From positions 1 through 39,560 of the IMG/VR virus record IMGVR_UViG_3300035698_007137: a DNA stretch of 39,560 bases; one strand, given 5' to 3'. The stretch comes from a virus. The notes below the pieces were generated by a model that ran no database searches, was not told the DNA's origin, and saw only the letters and a list, made by a program, of their open reading frames with translations. Below, piece by piece: positions 3,803 through 38,979 of the stretch. The first letter of the stretch is position 1; every line of letters begins with the position of its first letter. A program made the position numbers and the translations under genes.

Positions 3803-3893
3803 GGTTACGGCTTCACACCATAGTAACTTAAAGATTTCATAAAAATCCGATAATGACAAAAGACGTGAAGCCCTTTTTGATTTATCGGATTTT
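3803..3893 (+). promoter_or_regulatory. Structured leader RNA: two hairpins with complementary loops (kissing-loop candidate)
   Basis: Hairpin 1 pairs GTTAC (3804-3808) with GTAAC (3823-3827) around a 14-nt loop beginning GGCTTCAC (3809-3816). Hairpin 2 pairs AAAATCCGATAA (3842-3853) with TTATCGGATTTT (3882-3893), 12 perfect pairs, around a 28-nt loop containing GTGAAGCC (3865-3872). The two loop segments are perfectly complementary over 8 nt, so the hairpins can form a kissing or pseudoknotted structure. The element sits between the TAnnTTTG promoter and the ATG at 3916. A cis-regulatory leader (attenuator-like, or ligand/protein binding) or a small RNA are both possible. Confidence 0.55.
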
Positions 3894-4218: not shown

Positions 4219-5058
4219 ATGAACGTAAAAGATACAGGATGGATTAAAATACACCGTAACCTTTTGCAATGGGAATGGTATGATGATTTAAACGTTCGTG
4301 TTTTGTTTCTTCATTTACTTTTAACAGTGAATTATGAGGACAAAAAATGGCGAGGTTTATCCATTAAAAAAGGAAGTAGAATAACAGGTCGTGAACAACT
4401 TTCTAGTGAAACTGGAATAAGTGTAAGAAATGTAAGAACAGCTATCAAAAAACTAGAAATGACCAAGGAACTGACCATCAAAAAAGACCCGAAAGGCTCA
4501 ATGTTTACCGTAGTTAATTGGTCAAAGTATCAATCAAGCGACCAGCAAAACGACCATCATACCGACCAGACACCGACCAGCGAGCGACCAGCGACCGACC
4601 AGCAAGTGACCACAACTAAAGAAACTAAAGAATATAAAGAAGATAATAGTATTATGCCAAAACCTTCGGTTTCGGACAAGATTGACTTTTCTAAGCTTTT
4701 AGAGTTCTTCAATAAAACTACAGGTAAAAAATCTAGGGTAGTTAATAAAAAAACCAAAGAACAATTTAAAGCCAGGTTAAAAGAGGGTTATACAAAACAA
4801 GATATAAAAGAAGCGATTATGAATTGTTATACTGACTCGTTTCACAAAGAAACAAACCATAAACACCTAACCCTAGAATTTATAGGCAGAGCAGACAAGC
4901 TAGATAAATACTCTCAAAGAGAAAATATTGGTAAAAACGTAGCAACAACCGGTAGGTTTGCAGGGCTTCCTGTAGGGCATAAAGACGGAACAAGATTTAT
5001 TGATTACATAAGCGATGAAGGTCAAGCTGTTTGGAAAAACACAAAAGACATGCTATGA
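4219..5058 (+). CDS. Phage replication initiator / replisome organiser with Phg_2220_C domain
   Basis: 279 residues. The N-terminal part (about 1-100) is a winged-helix domain typical of phage replication proteins: WIKIHRNLLQWEWYDD, then GSRITGREQLSSETGISVRNVRTAIKKL. A hydrophilic linker (about 107-150, rich in D, Q, T) follows. Residues about 160-230 fit the conserved phage C-terminal domain (Phg_2220_C): FFNKTTGKKSR, ARLKEGYTKQDIKEAI, LTLEFIGRADKLDKY. Such proteins bind the origin and recruit the helicase, like lambda O. The linker-coding DNA carries seven phased GACCAG iterons, the arrangement seen in lambda O/ori. It overlaps the helicase gene at an ATGA junction, fitting initiator-helicase pairing. 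Confidence 0.8.
   Translation: MNVKDTGWIKIHRNLLQWEWYDDLNVRVLFLHLLLTVNYEDKKWRGLSIKKGSRITGREQLSSETGISVRNVRTAIKKLEMTKELTIKKDPKGSMFTVVNWSKYQSSDQQNDHHTDQTPTSERPATDQQVTTTKETKEYKEDNSIMPKPSVSDKIDFSKLLEFFNKTTGKKSRVVNKKTKEQFKARLKEGYTKQDIKEAIMNCYTDSFHKETNHKHLTLEFIGRADKLDKYSQRENIGKNVATTGRFAGLPVGHKDGTRFIDYISDEGQAVWKNTKDML
4540..4613 (+). repeat. Seven helically phased GACCAG(C) iterons, candidate replication origin
   Basis: GACCAG or near copies start at 4540, 4552 (GACCAT), 4564, 4575, 4586, 4597 and 4608 (GACCAC), spaced 12, 12, 11, 11, 11 and 11 bp, about one per helical turn. They lie within the replication initiator gene. An AT-rich run (about 4613-4660, AACTAAAG...AATATAAAG) follows and could be the unwinding element. 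The arrangement parallels the lambda origin inside gene O. Function as origin is inferred. Confidence 0.7.
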
Positions 5059-21170: not shown

Positions 21171-24100
21171 ATGCAAGACAACAACGATCCTATTAAAAGA
21201 AAAGAGTTATTTGATTATTTTAAATCAGAAAACCTTACTGATTTAGATTTTGATGCTTTTTCCGCTGCATACTCTTCACGAGAAAAAAGTGACGAAATAT
21301 ATGAATACCTATTATCAAGAAACCTAACGGAAATAGCTTCTAATGACTTTTACTTATCTTACTTTGGGGATGTAAAGCAAACACCAAATGTTTCAGAAAA
21401 CAACCAAGCTCGTAGACCTAAATCACAACAACCACAACTACCTGGTGTTTCAGTAAAAAAAAAAGACGGTACTTCCCTATCTTCAACTGCTACATCAGAA
21501 TTGGCAGCTACCAGTTTGGAATCTTCAATCTCAAAGGCCAGTGGGTTTTCGGATTTGCCAAAGCAAGCGCAAACTAAAAAATCGGCACCACTATCTTTTG
21601 AACAAGTTGATTTTGACCCAGACTTCTTAGAAGGTAAAGTTGCAGAAAAGTATAATCAAACTCTTTTAAACACAGACCAAGAAACTAAAAACAAATACTA
21701 CGAGTGGGCGGCTATAAGAAATTTAACCGGTTCAGACAGAAAAGAGGTTGCACTAAAAACAAAACCGCTAACAATAGAAAACTATAATGATACGCTAGGT
21801 TTTTTAGACTCTTTTACAATGAATCTAAAAACAAGTGTTACAAATGCTTTTTCTAGCGCAAAAGAAACCAAACGAGATACGCAGTCACAGTTGGACGAAC
21901 GCAATAAAGAACGTCAAGCAAAAGGCGCAAAAGAAGCTGTAGAAAAAGATATTCTACAAAAAAAATACAAGACATTTTTAGAAGGACTAAATAACCCAGA
22001 GCAACAAAAAAAAATAGAGCAGTTAGTTTTTCTCGAAGACGAAATTAATCAAAACACAATATTCAAGACAAACAAAAAGCTACCTGAAATTGAAAAGCAA
22101 ATAAATCAAATAGACATAAACCGTGTATCTTTATCTAAAGAGTATGAAAGACTAGAAAACAAACTAGCAACGACAAATTACGCAACAAAAGAAGAGCAGG
22201 TTGAGGATGTAAATGCTATAAACAGAACAGGCCAAGCAATAAATACTGAAATAAAAAACAGAAACAGAATAGCAAGCGAAGCAAAAGCCCAAATAGATGA
22301 GTCACTAGCTATAGAATCGTCAATAGGAAGTCTTAAGGATGAAGTATCTTTATTAAAGAAAAGCTATGAGTTTGGCGATAAAACAACAAACATGTTAGCT
22401 GCTGGAATTTCAGAAATAGGCTCTAATTTACTGTACTCAGCAGAAAGATTAAGCGCTTTAACAGATGTGTCAGGGGCAAATAATCTAAGTCCACAAGAAG
22501 TAGCTAGAAGACGACAAGCTAAGTTAAAGCAATTACAAAGCGAAGCCTTAAACAGAAGAGCTACTTTAAACACCTTTAGAGAAAACACGATACCACCAAG
22601 CGTTGAGCTAGAAAAAATAAGTTCTTTTGGCGATTTTGGTGAGTTTGCTTACGATGCTCTAATTCAAACAACGCCTACGCTTGCTCAACTGCTCATACCA
22701 AAAATAGGAATAGCCTCTTTTGCTGTGTCTCAACAAGCTAGTAATGAGCTAAACATAAGACAAAGAATAATAGAAAATAAGGTAGAGCTAGATGGTGTAA
22801 GCGAAAAACTAAACCTGGCAAATGTTCCATTAGAAGAAAAGTCTTCTTTATTAAAAAGAAAAGCCCAGTTAGAAGCTATAAAAGTACCGAATGAATTAGA
22901 GGTTTTTGGTGTTTCAGCAGGTCTTGTCGCAGTTGAACTAGGACTTATGCAGTTAGGTACTATACGCTTACTGGGTAACTTAAAAAGAGCAGCTATGACA
23001 GGCACTCAAACTGAATTAAAAACGGCTGTTTCAAGCTCGTTCTTAAAAAAGTTAGGTGTAGGAACTGTAGGGTACACTAAAGACGTTCTAGGTGAAGGCG
23101 TTGAGGAAGGTGGTATAACCTTAGCTACAAACTTAGCTGACATGCTTATTTTAGGGGAAAACTATAACCAAGACGGTTCCCAAAGAAACATAGCAGACGG
23201 AACTTTAAGCGCAACGGCCGGAGGTTTAATTGTTGGTGGTGTTCTTTCAGGAACTACGTCAGCGGTAGGATTTGCCGCTAGAGAAATAGCAGATAAAAAC
23301 GCAAGAACAACAATAGTAGCAAATACTATTGAATCAGAAGGCCTGCTTAATAACATAGACTTAATAAACCAAAGCCCGTTTAGAACACAGCAAGAAAAAT
23401 CTACAATTATTGAAGGCTACCAAAACAGGCTTACTGAGCTAAATAAGCAAAATGCTAAAATTATAAACACAACTTTTGATGCTTACGACAACATGCGTCC
23501 AGAAGACAAAAGAAGAGTTCTTGATATAAGCAACGAGTCCACAGCTATATCAATGACTATTTTTAGCTTATCTAAGAACATAGACAATGCAGCAATAGAA
23601 GACAGTATAGCAATAAACTCTTTAAATAAAAGGCAAACAGAACTAGAAAGCGAAAAAACAAACTTATTAAGAGCCTCGTCCCCTAGCCTAGAAATTACAG
23701 AAAACGGGAACACAATTAAACTAGACTCTAATAAAGAAATATTTGAGAAAATAGCAGATGATAATTTTATAGAAAGCTTTGCAAACGGATTAGTCAAAAT
23801 TGAGCTAAACAATAATGAAGAAGCTTTTGAACTACTTAACCAAAGAGTAGAAGAGTTTAATAGAACAAAAAATATAGTTCAACAAACAATAGCACAAGCG
23901 GTAAACACCAAAGACACTTTTTTCGACGAATTAGAAAACGAAGAAGACGCAATTACTAGGTTAAAAGAGCAAATCGATCCTGCAAAAAACAGAACAGAAG
24001 AGGTTAATAGAATAGCGCAAGAGCATACAGAAAGCTACGTAGCCTACCTAGAAGAAAACAATCAGCTAGACAAACTTCGAGACAGTAGTTTTGTGCAAAA

Positions 24101-27100
24101 CTTTCAAGACAACGTGCTTAATTCATTAACCGGTGTAATAGAAGTAGAGTCTAATCAATCACAAACACAAAAAGACGGTGTAAGAGTTGACACAGATGGC
24201 AACCCCATAAGTGAGCAAGAGTTTTTAAATCAAACAGGTAGAGACGGTTTAATAACAACTGCAAAAATAGAGTCTAAGGTACAAGAAATAAAGAACAGAA
24301 AATCTTTGACTAAGCAGCAAGCTATAAATCAAGCCACTGACGAACTAGGAGGAATGAATCCGCAACAGCTAAACGCTAGAGCAGAAGAAATACTAGCAAA
24401 TCAAGATTCAACACTTAAAAGCGAATCAGAAATATACAAGCAAGCAATAGACGAGTTAGCGCCTAGACCAGCACAAACAGAAAAAGCTAGAACACAGGCT
24501 CCTGCAAACACGCAAGTAAATGAAACAACACAGGCACAAAATACTATTGCTAATGCAAACGTTCAGCCTACAACTGAACAAAGTACACAACAAGAGCAAG
24601 ATAACGCAGTACAGCCCACCGTTGAGCCTACAACAAGTGCTGCAGCGGTTGAAGAATTAATAGAGGTTGACGAGTTTGATGTTATAATGAATGGCGAAGC
24701 TCAAAAAAGAAGGTTAACAGGAACATATACTAAAGACGGTGTGGTTTTCACAAGACAAAATAGTAACACTAAAAACCCTAAAGGAAGCTCAATCAAAATA
24801 AGGTTTGCCGATAATACGCAACAAGAAGTTCAATACCAATTAATAGAAGCTGAAAACCTGCAGCCTTCTCACCTTTCAGGAAACCGAAACCCTAACTTTT
24901 TTATAACAGAGGCACAACCTAAAAACAGAAGAGACCAAGCTTCTCAAAAGCAATCAGATAAAATAGCATCAGACCCTAACTTTGAAGAACTCGGAGGCAA
25001 CTCTCTTGCTTATAGCGGTGCGCCAGTAGTAAATGAAAGAGGTGAAGTTATTCAAGGAAACAACAGAAGTGAAGGTTTAAAAAAACATTATAATAGCGGA
25101 AGCTTAAAATATAAAAGTGACTTAGAAGCCAACGCAGAGCAGTTTGGGTTTACTAAGAACCAAGTCGCTGAAATGAAAAATCCAGTTCTCGTAAGGGTTG
25201 CTAATGTAAGTGATGCAAAATCTATAGAATTAGGTAATTTTGACGTTAAAGATATTGAAACAGGTGGTAAAAGAAGAATAGACCCCGTGGCCACATCTAG
25301 TAGGTTACCTAGAACTGTAAAACAAAAAATAACTGAAATTTTATTCCAAAACAACAACGACCAGACACTAAATAATTCCATAAGAGAAAATATTGATGCT
25401 GTTATAGGCGTTCTAAAAAACTACCTAAACGACGCGCAACTATCAACTTTAATAAATAAAAACGGAGACCCTAACCCAGAGGGAATTAAAGACATATCTG
25501 TTTTAATCGAGCATTTTCTTTTTGAAGACGGGGACAGCAACCTTCCAGAATTGTTTGAATCACTAAGCTTTAATGCTAAAGAAGGTATTTTAAAATCATT
25601 GCCAAAAATACTAACCTTACAGCCATCAAAAAGCATATTGAAAGAACTGCAAACTGCTATAATAATATACAACGAGTTTTCTAAAAGTGGTATAGCCAAC
25701 TTTAATGAATGGTTAAACCAAAGCGATGTTTTTAACGAAGGCCAAACCCCTTCAACAAAGTACGACCCTTTAGATTTAGCTGTAGCAAAAGTATTATTAG
25801 AATCAAAAAAGCAAGAACAAATAAGGTCGGTTTTTAATGAGTACGCAAGAATAGCAAATGGATCACCAGGAGATATGTTTACAGAAAGTTCTAGTCCTAA
25901 AACGAAAAAAGAAACAGTAAAAGAAATATTTAAAACAAACATACAAAATGAAAACACTAAAACAAATACAAGAACAAAAAATGCAGTGGATGAACCAAGC
26001 TCTAGAGACAGTGAAAGCAAAACAAAACCAAAAGCTGAAAAGCCCAATTCCAAAAAAATAAAAAACGTATTTAATCAAGATAATATAAAAGATGATTTAG
26101 ATTTTTTAGATGGTCTTAAGATAGATTTAAACGCGTCCTTTGCGACAATACCTTTTGCACCGCAAGTATGGAACGCCTTTATAGAGGCTTTAAAAATAGC
26201 AAGGCAAGCAGGAAACACAATACAAAAGTCAGTTGAAATCGCGCTAGACGAATTAAGGAAACTAGGCACTAGTAATTCTGAATTAAAAGCTATTGGAAAT
26301 TTTTTCTCTAAAAATGCTAACGTAAAAATAAACCTAGACTTTTTAGATAATAAAAAGTCAAATCAAGGCAATAAGACACAGACATTTGCAGAAAGAGTTT
26401 TAGAGTCCGAAAACACAAGTAATATTCTAAAGAAAAAATTAAGCAAATTAGATATAAATTACACCGAAGAAAACCAAGCCTTAGCAGAAGATAACGCTAA
26501 CCAAATAATAGCTGAAATAGGCATAGAGCAAGCTTATAAGTTTGCTAAAGAAGGTGTTATAAGAGGTGGTGCAAGAACTTACATTGAGATGAAGATGCAA
26601 GAAAACATGAACGAAAGACTTAACATTGCAATAGAAGAAAACGACAACGCTGCAATGGACGAAATATCTACTGAATTATCTGAAATCTATAAAAAATATG
26701 CAGACGAAAAAAGATTGACAGGGCAAGAAATCGCAATGTTAAACAGAATATACAAAAGGTCTTCTATTCAGTTTACTGTTGACTTTGTAAAGCAACAATG
26801 GCAACAAAAATTTGAAAGCGAAATACCGGCTGCTCTTGTAGCAAAACTAAAAAAACAAGAGCAAGTAATAAAGGATTTAGAAAAGGAAGTAAAAAAACTA
26901 GAAAAAGAAAGGGGAAATGAAAACGAAGCAACTTCATTTAAAAACATAAAACAAATTTACGACTCTAAAAGAAACCAGCCGTCACAAAGCTCTTTAAGAA
27001 AAGCTTCCAGAGCTTTAAGAAAGCATAAGTTCACATCAACCGTTAATGATTTAAGCACGTTACAATCCTCTCCGTTAGGGCTAGTTACAGCTATATTTGA

Positions 27101-29606
27101 TGGTGCAATAGAAACAATAGCAACTGCGTTAGACGCAGGCGCCACTTTAAGCGAAGCTGTAAACAAAGGCGTTAATGAAATTAAAAACACTGATTGGTAC
27201 AAGGGACTTTCAAAAGACTCACAAAATGTAGCTATCAATAAAATAAAATTAGACGTAGACAGTTTTCTTTCAGAAGAAATAGTTATTCCTACAACTGACG
27301 GAATTGAACAAGATGCAGTAAAAATACCGCCTCAATTACTATATGATTTAATAGCAACTGGAATAGACAATATAGGTGACTTAACAAGAGCCGTTCAAGA
27401 AATAATAAAAGAGGACTATCCAAACCTTACAGAACGAGAAGTAAGAGACGCTATAACAAAGTATGGAACTAAAATAAACGATACAAAAAGTGATATTGAA
27501 AAGATACTTTCCTCTTTAAAAATAGACGGAAATCAATTATCAAAACTAGAAGATTTAGGGGAAGGAAAAAGACCTTTAAAGAGAAGTAATGGTGTTAAAT
27601 ATACAAAAGAACAATCTCAAAAAATAAGAGAAATACAAAGGCTTCTTAGAAAGTTACCTATAGATGATAGTGCAGATACAGAGTCGCACTATAAGTCAGC
27701 TTTAGAGTCTTACAAAACAAGATTATCTAACCGTTTAGAAGAGCTTAAGAAAGCAGTAAAGAATAGCGAAATAATTAAAAACGAAAAAAGCAGCTTAACT
27801 TTAGATGATGATGCAAAAAATTTAAAAGAAGAAGTTGCGCGAGTTCAAAAAGAATATGATATAATGTTTTCTGAAACTGATGAAGCTTTTCAGGCTAGAG
27901 TTAATCAAGTCTTAACAAGAAAAAAAACAAGACTCAACAACCTTTTGGAAATGATCGAGTTTTTAAATATTGAACAAAAAGAACAACCAAAAAGTAGACC
28001 TGAAAAGGTTTTTTCTAAAGAAATATCTGATACAGACGAAAAAATAAAGCAAGCGCAACAAGAATATTCTGAAATATTAGAAGACATGGGTATTGCGGAA
28101 TCCAAGAGAGTTGAAAGAGCTTTAGCCTACATTAACACAAGAATTAACAATTATCAAGAAAGACTTAGAAAAAAAGATTTTGCAAAAAGCAAACCAAGAC
28201 CTCTTGTATCAGACCCAATTATAGGTAAGGCAAAACAAAAGTTACTAGAAGCTAAAAACAGATTCCAAGAAGAACTAGAAAAAGAAGAAAGAAAAAACAG
28301 AACAAAATTTCAAAAAGCATATGACTTTTTATTTGAGCTATGGAACATACCAAAAGGAACGCTTGCTTCTTTTGACTTCTCAGCTATGTTTAGACAAGGT
28401 ATAATGCTAGGTTCTTCAAACCCAAGAGAATATGCTAGAGCAACTAAAGTAATGCACAAGGCTATTTCGGAAGACTACTATAATGAGTTTGTTGCTAAAA
28501 TAGAAAACTCAAAGTATTTTCCACTGATGATGGAATCACTTTTAGAAATAACAGATACAAGCGGAAAAATAAACAAATCAGAAGAGTATTTTATAAGCAA
28601 CCTGACTAAAACAAAAATAAAAATAGCAGGTAAAAATGTCAATTTTGTCGGAATAGGACTAGAGGTTTCTGAAAGAGCATACTCTTCTTTTTTAAACAGC
28701 CTAAGAGCCGATGTTTTTATAAAAGGTGTTGATATTCTTGAAATACAAGGACAAAGCCCTGCAACAAACCCAAAAGCATATAAAGATTTAGCTAAAGTAA
28801 TAAACTATGCCACAGGAAGAGGTAAACTTACAAAAGACGATAACGTCAACAAACTTCTTAATGCCGTGTTCTTTTCACCAAGAATGATAACTGGAATGTT
28901 CGGATTATTAACTATGGCCTCTAATCCTACAACCACTAAATATGCTAGAACTCAAGCTTTAAAATCTTTAGCTACTTTCGTAGGCTACCAAGGTTTAATA
29001 AAACTACTTTTAGGTTCCGCTTTTGGTTTAATAAACTCTTTATTTATTGATGAAGAAGACAAGGAAGAAGTGGTTTTGCTTAATCTAGACCCTAGAGAAA
29101 CTGACTTTAATAAAATAAAAATAGGAAACACAAGATATGACACCTCAGCAGGTTGGGGTGTTGCCTTAAGAACGGCTGCAAGATTTATTACATCCGAAAA
29201 ATCTTCAAACGGAGTAGTAACAAGTTTAAACGAGGGGTTTAAATCTAATTCTTTTGATGAAGTAACTAACTTTTTTAAAAATAAATTAAGCCCTTCGGCT
29301 AGATTTTTGTATAATTACAAAGCAGACAATCACCCAACAGACATATATAAAACCCGAGAAGAAGCAACAACATATGATTACGTTCAGGCATTATTCGTTC
29401 CTTTAACAATATCAAGCACAATGGAAGATGTTTCAAATTCTATGGATAACAAACAAGGTTCTACGGTAGCTAAAACAACGTTTAACTTTATTCTTAACAC
29501 TTACGGAATAAACTCTATGACTTACGGGGAAAAATTGCCTAGCCTAAAAAGCAATCAAATGTCACCGCCTAAACTACCTACGCTTAAATCACCACCTAAA
29601 CCTTAA
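21171..29606 (+). CDS. Giant polyvalent ejection protein with DdrB-like ParB domain
   Basis: 2811 residues, the largest gene here and third in the ejection block. N-terminal 900 residues are helical with two hydrophobic glycine-rich segments (near 580, GVSAGLVAVELGLMQLG, and near 680, AGGLIVGGVLSGTTSAVG). A Q/T/P-rich linker (about 1090-1165) precedes a DdrB-like ParB-superfamily domain at about 1225-1330: LQPSHLSGNRNP, QPKNRRDQASQKQSDKIA, GAPVVNERGEVIQGNNRSEG. More helical and coiled-coil regions follow (near 1895). The C-terminal 430 residues (FDFSAMFRQGIMLGSSNP, then VFFSPRMITGMFG and a hydrophobic segment near 2600) resemble a domain repeatedly found at the end of phage polyvalent proteins. 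Such proteins are packaged and injected ahead of DNA. A gp16-like channel role plus DNA-modifying or anti-defence activity is inferred. Confidence 0.65.
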   Translation: MQDNNDPIKRKELFDYFKSENLTDLDFDAFSAAYSSREKSDEIYEYLLSRNLTEIASNDFYLSYFGDVKQTPNVSENNQARRPKSQQPQLPGVSVKKKDGTSLSSTATSELAATSLESSISKASGFSDLPKQAQTKKSAPLSFEQVDFDPDFLEGKVAEKYNQTLLNTDQETKNKYYEWAAIRNLTGSDRKEVALKTKPLTIENYNDTLGFLDSFTMNLKTSVTNAFSSAKETKRDTQSQLDERNKERQAKGAKEAVEKDILQKKYKTFLEGLNNPEQQKKIEQLVFLEDEINQNTIFKTNKKLPEIEKQINQIDINRVSLSKEYERLENKLATTNYATKEEQVEDVNAINRTGQAINTEIKNRNRIASEAKAQIDESLAIESSIGSLKDEVSLLKKSYEFGDKTTNMLAAGISEIGSNLLYSAERLSALTDVSGANNLSPQEVARRRQAKLKQLQSEALNRRATLNTFRENTIPPSVELEKISSFGDFGEFAYDALIQTTPTLAQLLIPKIGIASFAVSQQASNELNIRQRIIENKVELDGVSEKLNLANVPLEEKSSLLKRKAQLEAIKVPNELEVFGVSAGLVAVELGLMQLGTIRLLGNLKRAAMTGTQTELKTAVSSSFLKKLGVGTVGYTKDVLGEGVEEGGITLATNLADMLILGENYNQDGSQRNIADGTLSATAGGLIVGGVLSGTTSAVGFAAREIADKNARTTIVANTIESEGLLNNIDLINQSPFRTQQEKSTIIEGYQNRLTELNKQNAKIINTTFDAYDNMRPEDKRRVLDISNESTAISMTIFSLSKNIDNAAIEDSIAINSLNKRQTELESEKTNLLRASSPSLEITENGNTIKLDSNKEIFEKIADDNFIESFANGLVKIELNNNEEAFELLNQRVEEFNRTKNIVQQTIAQAVNTKDTFFDELENEEDAITRLKEQIDPAKNRTEEVNRIAQEHTESYVAYLEENNQLDKLRDSSFVQNFQDNVLNSLTGVIEVESNQSQTQKDGVRVDTDGNPISEQEFLNQTGRDGLITTAKIESKVQEIKNRKSLTKQQAINQATDELGGMNPQQLNARAEEILANQDSTLKSESEIYKQAIDELAPRPAQTEKARTQAPANTQVNETTQAQNTIANANVQPTTEQSTQQEQDNAVQPTVEPTTSAAAVEELIEVDEFDVIMNGEAQKRRLTGTYTKDGVVFTRQNSNTKNPKGSSIKIRFADNTQQEVQYQLIEAENLQPSHLSGNRNPNFFITEAQPKNRRDQASQKQSDKIASDPNFEELGGNSLAYSGAPVVNERGEVIQGNNRSEGLKKHYNSGSLKYKSDLEANAEQFGFTKNQVAEMKNPVLVRVANVSDAKSIELGNFDVKDIETGGKRRIDPVATSSRLPRTVKQKITEILFQNNNDQTLNNSIRENIDAVIGVLKNYLNDAQLSTLINKNGDPNPEGIKDISVLIEHFLFEDGDSNLPELFESLSFNAKEGILKSLPKILTLQPSKSILKELQTAIIIYNEFSKSGIANFNEWLNQSDVFNEGQTPSTKYDPLDLAVAKVLLESKKQEQIRSVFNEYARIANGSPGDMFTESSSPKTKKETVKEIFKTNIQNENTKTNTRTKNAVDEPSSRDSESKTKPKAEKPNSKKIKNVFNQDNIKDDLDFLDGLKIDLNASFATIPFAPQVWNAFIEALKIARQAGNTIQKSVEIALDELRKLGTSNSELKAIGNFFSKNANVKINLDFLDNKKSNQGNKTQTFAERVLESENTSNILKKKLSKLDINYTEENQALAEDNANQIIAEIGIEQAYKFAKEGVIRGGARTYIEMKMQENMNERLNIAIEENDNAAMDEISTELSEIYKKYADEKRLTGQEIAMLNRIYKRSSIQFTVDFVKQQWQQKFESEIPAALVAKLKKQEQVIKDLEKEVKKLEKERGNENEATSFKNIKQIYDSKRNQPSQSSLRKASRALRKHKFTSTVNDLSTLQSSPLGLVTAIFDGAIETIATALDAGATLSEAVNKGVNEIKNTDWYKGLSKDSQNVAINKIKLDVDSFLSEEIVIPTTDGIEQDAVKIPPQLLYDLIATGIDNIGDLTRAVQEIIKEDYPNLTEREVRDAITKYGTKINDTKSDIEKILSSLKIDGNQLSKLEDLGEGKRPLKRSNGVKYTKEQSQKIREIQRLLRKLPIDDSADTESHYKSALESYKTRLSNRLEELKKAVKNSEIIKNEKSSLTLDDDAKNLKEEVARVQKEYDIMFSETDEAFQARVNQVLTRKKTRLNNLLEMIEFLNIEQKEQPKSRPEKVFSKEISDTDEKIKQAQQEYSEILEDMGIAESKRVERALAYINTRINNYQERLRKKDFAKSKPRPLVSDPIIGKAKQKLLEAKNRFQEELEKEERKNRTKFQKAYDFLFELWNIPKGTLASFDFSAMFRQGIMLGSSNPREYARATKVMHKAISEDYYNEFVAKIENSKYFPLMMESLLEITDTSGKINKSEEYFISNLTKTKIKIAGKNVNFVGIGLEVSERAYSSFLNSLRADVFIKGVDILEIQGQSPATNPKAYKDLAKVINYATGRGKLTKDDNVNKLLNAVFFSPRMITGMFGLLTMASNPTTTKYARTQALKSLATFVGYQGLIKLLLGSAFGLINSLFIDEEDKEEVVLLNLDPRETDFNKIKIGNTRYDTSAGWGVALRTAARFITSEKSSNGVVTSLNEGFKSNSFDEVTNFFKNKLSPSARFLYNYKADNHPTDIYKTREEATTYDYVQALFVPLTISSTMEDVSNSMDNKQGSTVAKTTFNFILNTYGINSMTYGEKLPSLKSNQMSPPKLPTLKSPPKP

Positions 29607-35806: not shown

Positions 35807-36595
35807 ATGAGCACACAAAGAGACCAAGTACTATTAGAAGTACAGACAGCAATAACTGCGCAAACCCAAGTAAACGGAATTACACCTGCAATACTAGGTC
35901 AAATAATAGCAGATGCAATAAGTTTAATAAATCTATCAGTTGTAAATGACTTTATTGTAGTCAACAATATTGTGATATCTTCTTCTAAAGGGGTTAACAT
36001 ACCACAAGGAATTACGGGCATTGGTGATTATGCTTTTTCTGACAACCAGCTGACAAGTTTAACCATACCTAACTCAGTTACAAGTATTGGTCAAAATGCT
36101 TTTTTCGGCAACCAACTGACAAGCGTAACCATACCTAACTCAGTTACAAGTATTGGTCAAAATGCTTTTTCCAGTAATCAACTGACAAATGTAATCATAC
36201 CAAGTTCAGTTACAAGTATCGGTAATTCCGCTTTTTTCGGCAACCAGCTGACAAATGTAATCATACCAAGTTCAGTTACAAGTATCGGTGTTGCTGTTTT
36301 TCAAAATAACCAACTGACAAGCGTAACCATACCTAACTCAGTTACAAGTATCGGTAATTCCGCTTTTTCCAGTAATCAACTGACAAATGTAATCATACCA
36401 AGTTCAGTTACAAGTATTGGTCAAAATGCTTTTTTCAATAACCAGCTGACAAGTTTAACCATACCTAACTCAGTTACAAGTATTGGTCAAAATGCTTTTT
36501 TCGGCAACCAACTCACTACGGTAGAAATATCAGCAACATGCACATTCGCAGTTAATTCATTTGATAGTGGCGTAACAATTACAAGAAGACCGTAA
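35807..36595 (+). CDS. BspA-type leucine-rich-repeat tail protein (receptor-binding candidate)
   Basis: 262 residues. A short helical N-terminus ([31 protein letters not shown]) is followed by eight 22-residue repeats (residues about 68-245) of the type [20 protein letters not shown], the LRR_5/BspA signature also found in bacterial surface adhesins. No signal peptide. Coupled by TAATG to the next gene. A likely function is receptor binding on the host surface; the repeats would form a curved beta solenoid. The repeat DNA is nearly identical between units, which favours recombination-driven variation. Confidence 0.7.
36012..36539 (+). repeat. 66-bp tandem repeats (8 units) encoding LRR_5
   Basis: Units share GTTACAAGTAT, AATGCTTTTT and CAACTGACAA blocks. 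Adjacent units mix variant segments (GGCAACC or AGTAATC, and AAGCGTAACC or AAATGTAATC), a mosaic pattern typical of unequal exchange or gene conversion. Confidence 0.8.
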
Positions 36596-38979
36596 TGAAA
36601 AAGCAATACAGAATAATAAACAAAGGCAAAGGTGTACTGGGCATCACCAAAGACAACTTGCAAGAAGTAGGTAATGAAGCTGTATTGAGCCCATCATTAT
36701 ACCTAGGCACGTTCGCGACATTAAACGCCTTAAACACCGCACACCCAACACCTGCAAATGGCACGTATGCCTTTAGCACCGACCGCACAACGCGGTGGAA
36801 TAGAATAGAGGGACAATGGCAAATCGAAAGCCTAGGCAACGCAGAAAGCGCACCGCAAGAGCTGTACCAAAACATAAATGAATTAATTAATGCACAAGCT
36901 ACACAGTCAGGCGACACCTTGTATTATGTAGGTGATGCAACGCAAGACCCAGCGGTTGTGGCTCGCGGTACAACTGACGCTTACTACATTTATTCGGGGC
37001 AAGCAAACGGGGTTTTAAGTGACTATATGTTGCAACCTACAGATGCTTTTGCACCTGTGGTTTTAGATGCAGGTCAAAACATCACTATTGTAAATGACGT
37101 TGTAGACGTTAAAATACCACCTTTTGAAATTGTTAGTGCTATTTTAGGTACTACTGGTTTATTTCCACAAAACCTTACTATAGATTCATTAGGTAATATT
37201 TACACAACAAATTTTGACGCAAATAACGTAACTAAAATAACCCCTGCTGGTGTATCTAGTATTCTAGGAACTACAGGTTCACGTCCAACAGGCATTGCCA
37301 TAGATTTACAAGGTAATATTTACACTGCAAACCAATTTTCAAACAATGTAACTAAAATAACACCTGCTGGCGTATCAACAATTCTAGCAACTACAGGTTC
37401 ACAACCAAGAAGTATTGCAATAGATTTACAGGGTAACATTTATACTGCAAACTCTGTTTCAAACAACGTAACTAAAATAACACCTGCTGGTGTGTCTACT
37501 ATTCTAGGAACTACCGCAACAAGTCCATTTGATATTGTTATAGATTCATCGGGCAATATTTACACTGCCAACGCTAGTTCAAACAACGTAACCAAAATAA
37601 CCCCTGCTGGTGTGTCCACTATTCTAGGAACTACAGGTTCAAGTCCATACGGCATTGCAATAGATTCACAAAGCAACATTTATACTGCAAATGCTGACTC
37701 AGAAAATGTAACTAAGATAACACCTGCTGGTGTATCTACTATTCTAGGTACTACAGGTTTATTTCCATATGGCATTGCAATAGACTTACAAGGTAATATT
37801 TACACCGCAAATGCTGACTCAGACAATGTAACCAAAATAACACCTGCTGGTGTATCGACTATTCTAGGAACTACAGGTTCACAGCCATTTAATATTGCTA
37901 TAGATTCACAAAACAATATTTATACAGTAAATGCGGGTTCAAACAACGTAACTAAAATAGGAAAAGACACTAGAAGAAATCTAGCAATAAACGACGCTGG
38001 TAATATTGTAAGAACTGATTTACCAGAAGAGATAGACACATTCCCAACCACTTACACGCCCACAGGAACTGTTACAGACAGGCTTGTAAACTACGGCAAT
38101 GGTACAAATAATAACAACCGTAGCGACGCGTACACGCTGTTTAAAAACGGAATGCAAAAGTTCTTTACGGCTGCATTAAGCACTATTACAAACGCTGTTA
38201 AAGGCTCTGTAGTGCTAGACGAAAACGCAAGGTTGCACATACACGACGGCACCGCGTTTAAAGAGGTTGCGTTTAGTGATGAAGTAAAAAGTTTAAAAAA
38301 TGACATCGTAAAAGGCGCGAGTTACTTTAATGATTTTGACGGAAATATAATTAACTCACTAAACGACGGTAATTTTATTTATACAGGCGTCAATGGTGGT
38401 ACAATAAGCCAAACCCTTGACGCAGCATTTGACGAGGATGATGTTTTAAGTTTGAGATGCTCAAGCGCAATTAATTCAGCTGCTTATTTTCATAACTCTA
38501 ATGGTACTACTGTCAGTTTTAAAAACGTAGAACACCGAGCTAAAGTAAGAGTAAAAGATTTAGCAACAGCAGCAGATAAATTCTTGTTTATGTTTGGAAG
38601 GGCAAACAACCCGACAATTATGAGCTCATTTAGTTGTTATGGCTTCATTTACGATAAAGCAGGCGACTATTTAGGAACAGCAAGCGACAATTGGCTCGCT
38701 GTTACCAGAAATTTCGGAGATTCAACAATAGTCGACACTGGTATTCCTGTAATTGATTCAGTTTATGTGAGATTGATGATAAGATTTACACCTACAAGCA
38801 TAGCATATTTCTTTAACGGCGTTTTAGTTGCTACAATCACAACCAATATTGTCTTAGGATTTTCGCGCGATTTAATGGCAATTCAAAAAACGGCAGCGGG
38901 GACAATTAGTCAAGAGGTATTAGTTGACTACTACGCAAGAACGCAAACGAAAATAACACCTAGAATATATGACAACTAG
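36595..38979 (+). CDS. Tail fibre/appendage protein with seven-blade NHL-type propeller
   Basis: 794 residues. N-terminal 90 residues have a phage-appendage style (LYLGTFATLNALN, NGTYAFSTDRTTRWNR). Residues about 182-461 are seven consecutive 40-residue NHL-like repeats with the core G-x-I-x-I-D-x-x-G-N-I-Y-T-A-N...N-V-T-K-I-T-P-A-G-V-S-T-I-L-G, expected to fold as a seven-bladed beta propeller. A following KNGMQKFF/IHDGTAFKEVAF segment links to a C-terminal beta-rich domain (FNDFDGNIINSL to SQEVLVDYYA), possibly a concanavalin-like lectin fold. The combination of propeller plus lectin-like domain suggests carbohydrate or receptor recognition. It overlaps the next gene by 11 nt. Confidence 0.65.
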   Translation: MKKQYRIINKGKGVLGITKDNLQEVGNEAVLSPSLYLGTFATLNALNTAHPTPANGTYAFSTDRTTRWNRIEGQWQIESLGNAESAPQELYQNINELINAQATQSGDTLYYVGDATQDPAVVARGTTDAYYIYSGQANGVLSDYMLQPTDAFAPVVLDAGQNITIVNDVVDVKIPPFEIVSAILGTTGLFPQNLTIDSLGNIYTTNFDANNVTKITPAGVSSILGTTGSRPTGIAIDLQGNIYTANQFSNNVTKITPAGVSTILATTGSQPRSIAIDLQGNIYTANSVSNNVTKITPAGVSTILGTTATSPFDIVIDSSGNIYTANASSNNVTKITPAGVSTILGTTGSSPYGIAIDSQSNIYTANADSENVTKITPAGVSTILGTTGLFPYGIAIDLQGNIYTANADSDNVTKITPAGVSTILGTTGSQPFNIAIDSQNNIYTVNAGSNNVTKIGKDTRRNLAINDAGNIVRTDLPEEIDTFPTTYTPTGTVTDRLVNYGNGTNNNNRSDAYTLFKNGMQKFFTAALSTITNAVKGSVVLDENARLHIHDGTAFKEVAFSDEVKSLKNDIVKGASYFNDFDGNIINSLNDGNFIYTGVNGGTISQTLDAAFDEDDVLSLRCSSAINSAAYFHNSNGTTVSFKNVEHRAKVRVKDLATAADKFLFMFGRANNPTIMSSFSCYGFIYDKAGDYLGTASDNWLAVTRNFGDSTIVDTGIPVIDSVYVRLMIRFTPTSIAYFFNGVLVATITTNIVLGFSRDLMAIQKTAAGTISQEVLVDYYARTQTKITPRIYDN
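37141..37980 (+). repeat. Seven 120-bp tandem repeats encoding NHL blades
   Basis: Seven in-frame units of 120 bp, each beginning ATTTTAGG or ATTCTAG(G/C) with ACTAC and carrying GGTAATATTTA(C/T)AC-type and CCTGCTGGTGT cores. Units differ mostly in the segment after ACTACAGG and in the variable residues before AATGTAAC. Confidence 0.85.

Follow-up and report, generated by a model that had tools for sequence, protein, structure and literature searches.

The window, which here means the whole analysed stretch of 39,560 bases, is a virus record. Its large terminase shares 58% identity with the one from Tenacibaculum phage Gundel_1 and otherwise matches mainly Cellulophaga and Flavobacterium phages, and this affiliation with phages of Flavobacteriaceae bears out the Bacteroidota phage named in the original prediction, which was made from the sequence without database searches. 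The replication locus contains the following features:

4219 to 5058, plus strand: initiator (replisome organizer) gene, 279 amino acids, with a winged helix, a disordered linker and a small C-terminal domain
4252 to 4533, plus strand: winged-helix DNA-binding (wHTH) domain, residues 12-105 (AlphaFold2, pLDDT 94-98 over most of it)
4390 to 4392, plus strand: codon of Arg58, which lies at the N-terminal end of helix 58-65 and covaries with base 4 of the iteron
4426 to 4428, plus strand: codon of Arg70, which is the second residue in recognition helix 69-81 and covaries with bases 1-2 of the iteron
4539 to 4612, plus strand: iteron array, with CGACCA at 4539, 4551, 4563, 4574, 4585 and 4596 and TGACCA at 4607
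4613 to 4652, plus strand: AT-rich stretch with tandem 9-bp repeats (AACTAAAGA), 8 of 40 bases G or C; candidate unwinding element
4687 to 4923, plus strand: C-terminal domain, TIGR02220/Phg_2220_C-like, 49% identical to the domain of phage FCL-2
5055 to 6092, plus strand: RecA-fold hexameric-type helicase of T7 gp4/Twinkle/DnaB/G40P type, without a primase domain (PHROG 18375, E 3.5e-15)

Several other features were observed in the window. An RNA hairpin at 3842-3893, with a 12-bp stem (z -3.6 against shuffles), lies just upstream of ATG 3916, the likely true start of the gene before the initiator, and is possibly a terminator or attenuator. A BRO-N antirepressor is encoded at 1189-1947 on the minus strand, and its later part matches PHROG 6287, ‘BstA abortive infection system, replication inhibitor’ (8e-18). 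The structural region includes one ORF of 2811 codons (21171-29606). At 35807-38979, a BspA-type leucine-rich-repeat gene with 66-bp DNA repeats is followed by an NHL/Vgb beta-propeller gene with 120-bp repeats; these repeat-rich genes are of surface type and adjoin the structural module. Searches of the window for Rfam families and tRNA genes found none.

The best family match of the initiator is PHROG 2514, ‘DnaD-like helicase loader’ (E 2e-30), which is also matched by all 63 aligned relatives. Weaker matches are to Phage_rep_org_N and to O-like PHROGs (PHROG 345 at 8e-11), and the weak Pfam matches to PF09681 and PF09524 fall under the curated cut-offs. Profiles and the structural model agree on an architecture of a winged helix and a C-terminal DnaD/Phg_2220-like domain. 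In Foldseek searches the wHTH model matches wHTH DNA binders, replisome organizers and a lambdoid O protein, that of ECP1, with a TM of 0.85 by target length over 81 columns. Searches of the PDB gave no significant match with the wHTH sequence and no match under E 1e-3 with its fold. In the AlphaFold2 model, Arg58 and Arg70 each lie at the beginning of one of the two HTH helices. The linker, at about residues 109-150, is rich in polar residues and is disordered in the model (pLDDT about 50), and the array lies within it, in the part of the gene where the iterons had been placed before.

The array consists of seven copies of GACCA on the plus strand, at 4540, 4552, 4564, 4575, 4586, 4597 and 4608, and the steps between successive copies are 12, 12, 11, 11, 11 and 11 bp. 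The 11-12 bp spacing and helical phasing of the original prediction are thus found in the window, while its seven copies of GACCAG are correct for the first five letters: the full GACCAG is present five times, and the other two copies are GACCAT and GACCAC. The iterons are short direct repeats without dyad symmetry. CGACCAG is found nine times in the window, five of them in the array, against 1.1 expected and a maximum of four in 100 shuffles. Neither strand of the window holds a second array, and the next best place scores 12 in the chained-repeat search, against 20 for the array. Three outlying copies of GACCA were seen in the wHTH-coding DNA, two on the plus strand (4461 and 4473, 12 bp apart) and one on the minus strand (4519), which are possibly accessory sites or chance occurrences. 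The GC skew, a check named together with the original prediction, has no clear turning point across the window.

The peptide encoded over the array, DQQNDHHTDQTPTSERPATDQQVTTT, is non-repetitive because steps of 11 bp run through all three reading frames. Since 11 is not a multiple of three, a non-repetitive peptide over a repetitive DNA argues by itself for selection at the DNA level. A disordered and polar-rich linker could in principle give repeats as a by-product of low complexity, and replication slippage can also produce tandem arrays, but the peptide is not periodic and the array is lost on recoding: the maximum score among 2000 synonymous recodings of the linker peptide was 15, and among 2000 codon shuffles 13, against the 20 of the array. 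Slippage and low-complexity peptide are ruled out by these two nulls, and this explanation is given virtually no probability; it is also contradicted by the comparison of relatives and by the hold-out test described below.

The array is directly followed by AT-rich DNA (4613-4652), as had been predicted, and the adjacent gene encodes the DnaB/Twinkle-like helicase, an assignment that is upheld by PHROG, profile and fold matches. The profile match to Twinkle is 1.8e-6, and Foldseek matches are T7 gp4D (7e-13) and SPP1 G40P (TM 0.74 by target length). The Walker A motif is GMDNVGKTT, and its GK is invariant across 29 relatives; the helicase of Cellulophaga phi18:3 could not be aligned with that of the window.

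Relatives of the initiator were collected by scans of viral and genome contigs, which gave at least 160 relatives in a first set and then at least 146 further loci; a scan of viral contigs with a single protein query gave one locus. The array threshold is passed by 198 of the 207 non-redundant relatives of both sets, and most of the remaining nine have degenerate copies by eye. Nearly all of the 198 arrays have 4-10 copies. The first, promoter-proximal step is longer (12 bp) in 123 of them than the later steps, which are mostly of 11 bp. The 40 bp right after the array have a G+C content 12-13 points below that of the gene (mean over the arrays of the 198 relatives). In 15 of 20 sampled relatives the downstream neighbours are helicases or helicase loaders, and they are of several kinds, which means that the initiator module occurs together with different helicase supplies. 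Among host-genome contigs, those with an array represent about a dozen named phyla, predominantly Bacillota and Bacteroidota, and some of the bins may be erroneous. One possible case of this is L161, an initiator with an AACAA-type array whose contig was binned under the archaeon Methanosphaera.

The period of the array can also be measured directly on the genes. Base identity at lag 11, taken over the 100 bp that follow the wHTH in 133 non-redundant genes of the first set, reaches 0.507, whereas synonymous recodings give 0.398 (z 35), and there are further peaks at lags 22 and 33; for the wHTH of these genes the value is 0.314, and for their C-terminal part 0.289. Motif letters differ widely among relatives (AACCAAC, GACCAAC, AACAAAC, GGCAAGC, GACAGGC and others), and a period of about 11 is also present in families with unrelated motifs, which is difficult to reconcile with slippage or low complexity. 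The motif changes among phages and the phasing stays, therefore DNA, and not peptide, is under selection. The comparison that had been proposed as a check, looking for iterons that persist while the encoded linker residues change, has accordingly a positive outcome in about 200 relatives. The linker peptide would then be largely a passenger, with its residues set by the DNA.

The family iteron reads roughly A-N-Y-R-R-C-M-A-N-C-A. When all wHTH columns were compared with all iteron positions, two of the 104 wHTH columns stood out. Column 66, which is residue 70 of the window protein, tracks bases 1-2 (Gln with AA, Arg with GA, Lys with GG), and column 54, residue 58 of the window protein, tracks base 4 (Arg with C; Leu, Ile, Val, Tyr or Phe with A). 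With Arg70 and Arg58, the initiator of the window is therefore predicted to have GACC, which is the window's own repeat. Both codons are located well upstream of the array, so the relationship does not come from coding overlap. Weak signals at other columns, such as that of wing residue 92 with bases -2 and +7, are not claimed.

The rule was fixed on the first set and applied to a hold-out of 72 later initiators, none of which exceeded 75% identity to a training gene over the stretch compared. The iteron register was assigned by a PSSM built from the training arrays only, without protein information. Single bases were right in 67 of 68 cases for base 1, 65 of 67 for base 2 and 64 of 69 for base 4, and all three bases were exact in 60 of 68. 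Random re-pairing gave a mean of 15.4 and a maximum of 30 of 68 exact triplets in 10,000 re-pairings. Copying the motif from the most similar training wHTH gave 33 of 68, against the 60 of the code, and in the 35 cases where this nearest-relative copy was wrong the code was right in 30.

Path-disjoint pairs were counted on a tree of the 198 genes built without the two code columns. Concordant pairs were 43 of 45 for base 1 with residue 70, 19 of 24 for base 2 with residue 70, and 20 of 28 for base 4 with residue 58, with no opposite pair in any of the three comparisons. Crossed pairings were near random on this tree, and no other column came close. Well-supported branches alone leave six pairs for base 1, about five of them concordant and none opposite, which are too few for significance. 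In eight named phages with about 28-35% identity, inspected by eye, base 4 fits in seven of eight and base 1 in four of four. Bacillus phage Pookie, a culturable relative with Leu at the position of residue 58 and Gln at that of residue 70, has AACA, which is what the code predicts. Shared ancestry as the cause of the code is ruled out by the path-disjoint pairs, the crossed controls and the nearest-neighbour comparison. Iteron letters that track two distant residues of the DNA-binding domain also stand against an origin of the repeats by slippage or linker composition.

Because two residues predict the letters of the repeats, the initiator appears to read its own gene, that is, to recognise the repeats of the array within it, as judged from the covariation with its hold-out and nearest-neighbour control. 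It is highly likely that a large initiator family, with members in genomes or bins from about a dozen phyla, follows a two-residue code for the 11-bp iterons in the initiator's own gene, in which bases 1-2 are specified by residue 70 and base 4 by residue 58. The origin would then be readable from the protein and the protein from the origin, and a stretch of protein would be written by DNA selection. The two-residue code was not found in the open-access literature that was searched, a result that does not prove its novelty.

Several phage origins are known inside initiator genes and can be compared with the array. ORF13 of TP901-1 and ORF16 of Tuc2009 bind direct repeats within their own genes, which serve as phage origins (PMC8965321), and the record of Tuc2009 is annotated with ‘contains origin of replication’. 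These proteins of lactococcal P335 phages (Rep2009 in Tuc2009) have a DnaD-like annotation, as the window initiator has, although their N-terminal domains do not match the wHTH profile of the window family; inspection of TP901-1 by eye showed no regular 11-bp repeats. In r1t, ORF11, which has been described as homologous to Rep2009, contains GGAACC at steps of 11 bp. In SPP1, the oriL repeats bound by gp38 are direct repeats located in gene 38, next to an AT-rich unwinding element, and the origin design and the helicase hand-over have been reconstituted in vitro (PMC6316719). The likeness to SPP1 follows the published description; SPP1 differs in having a second origin, oriR, and separate genes for a loader and a DnaB-type helicase. 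ORF20 of 80alpha has been proposed to carry an origin in the same way (PMC5499656). The gene for gp20 of this Staphylococcus phage, an initiator gene, has an annotated putative rep_origin inside it, with repeats and then AT-rich ACTAATAATAAT DNA, but its wHTH is another one and its repeats are not of the 11-bp RRCM type. Flavobacterium phage FCL-2 gp54 (L012, 1578-2294) shares the C-terminal domain and has a linker that is also repetitive. Its N-terminal domain is different and its linker repeats are of another kind, partly inverted (CTCGGAAA/TCCGA), which would be expected if iterons moved together with the DNA-binding domain.

The original prediction had described the locus as a copy of the lambda O/ori design. 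The location in the middle of the initiator gene and the AT-rich neighbour after the iterons are indeed those of ori-lambda, and the wHTH fold is related to that of a lambdoid O protein. The phasing is not: lambda has annotated iterons of 18 bp at 20-24-bp steps, and O proteins bind as dimers (PMC7466680), in contrast to the short, non-palindromic direct repeats of the window at 11-12 bp. Lambda also has a separate loader, P, and uses the host DnaB. A strict O-type origin, with O-like dimers on dyad iterons, would account for the position in the gene, the AT-rich DNA, the common fold and the weaker O-like PHROG matches, but besides the iterons it is opposed by the family assignment, since DnaD-like PHROG 2514 is a far better match than O-like PHROG 345 and the wHTH profile (A1) has no match to lambda O; it is very improbable. 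As the type of iteron differs, ‘lambda-like’ is true of what the origin works like and not of its membership, and the assignment to the DnaD-like group of PHROG 2514 makes TP901-1, Tuc2009 and SPP1 closer models than lambda. By its sequence, the initiator of the window is very probably a new member of the TP901-1/Tuc2009/SPP1 kind of origin-containing replisome organizers, with direct repeats next to AT-rich DNA inside the gene.

The array is very probably a theta-type replication origin inside its own initiator gene, of the kind of TP901-1, Tuc2009 and SPP1, with the winged helix binding the repeats. The N-terminal winged helix would bind the short direct repeats, probably with one domain per repeat, and with steps of 11-12 bp the initiators would stand in a row along a single face of the DNA, as the spacing suggests. 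G-A at bases 1-2 would be selected by Arg70 of the recognition helix, and C at base 4 by Arg58, with which the preceding helix begins; both contacts are inferred from covariation, which strongly supports them. The row of initiators may melt the AT-rich DNA just downstream (4613-4652), and the C-terminal domain, by comparison with known relatives, may hand over the helicase, which is the product of the next gene.

The code shows recognition, and not what binding does. The array could also be an operator, with the initiator acting as a roadblock or autoregulator on its own gene and the true origin elsewhere, and its position deep within a transcribed gene is compatible with such a role. Against this reading, AT-rich DNA follows the array in fixed order and at a fixed distance across the family, helicase or loader genes are usually next, and the window has no other array. 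Moreover, the origins of TP901-1, Tuc2009 and SPP1 lie in the same place in the gene, in relatives of the same design, and for such related systems, which share the layout, origin function is proven. An operator in place of an origin is thus improbable, although origin and regulatory roles of the array could coexist.

Origins inside initiator genes are textbook knowledge, but they were worked out one phage at a time. What the comparison reveals is a single conserved layout, made of a wHTH, iterons at 12-then-11-bp steps, AT-rich DNA and usually a helicase or loader gene, in which the letters of the iterons are changeable, and it gives a rule that links two amino acids to three bases. If this is confirmed at the bench, origins of unculturable phages could be located from sequence, and the rule would predict which phages or satellites cross-use origins, as well as resistance by origin decoys of the Per type. 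The family would also be a clean case of a protein sequence shaped by selection at the DNA level.
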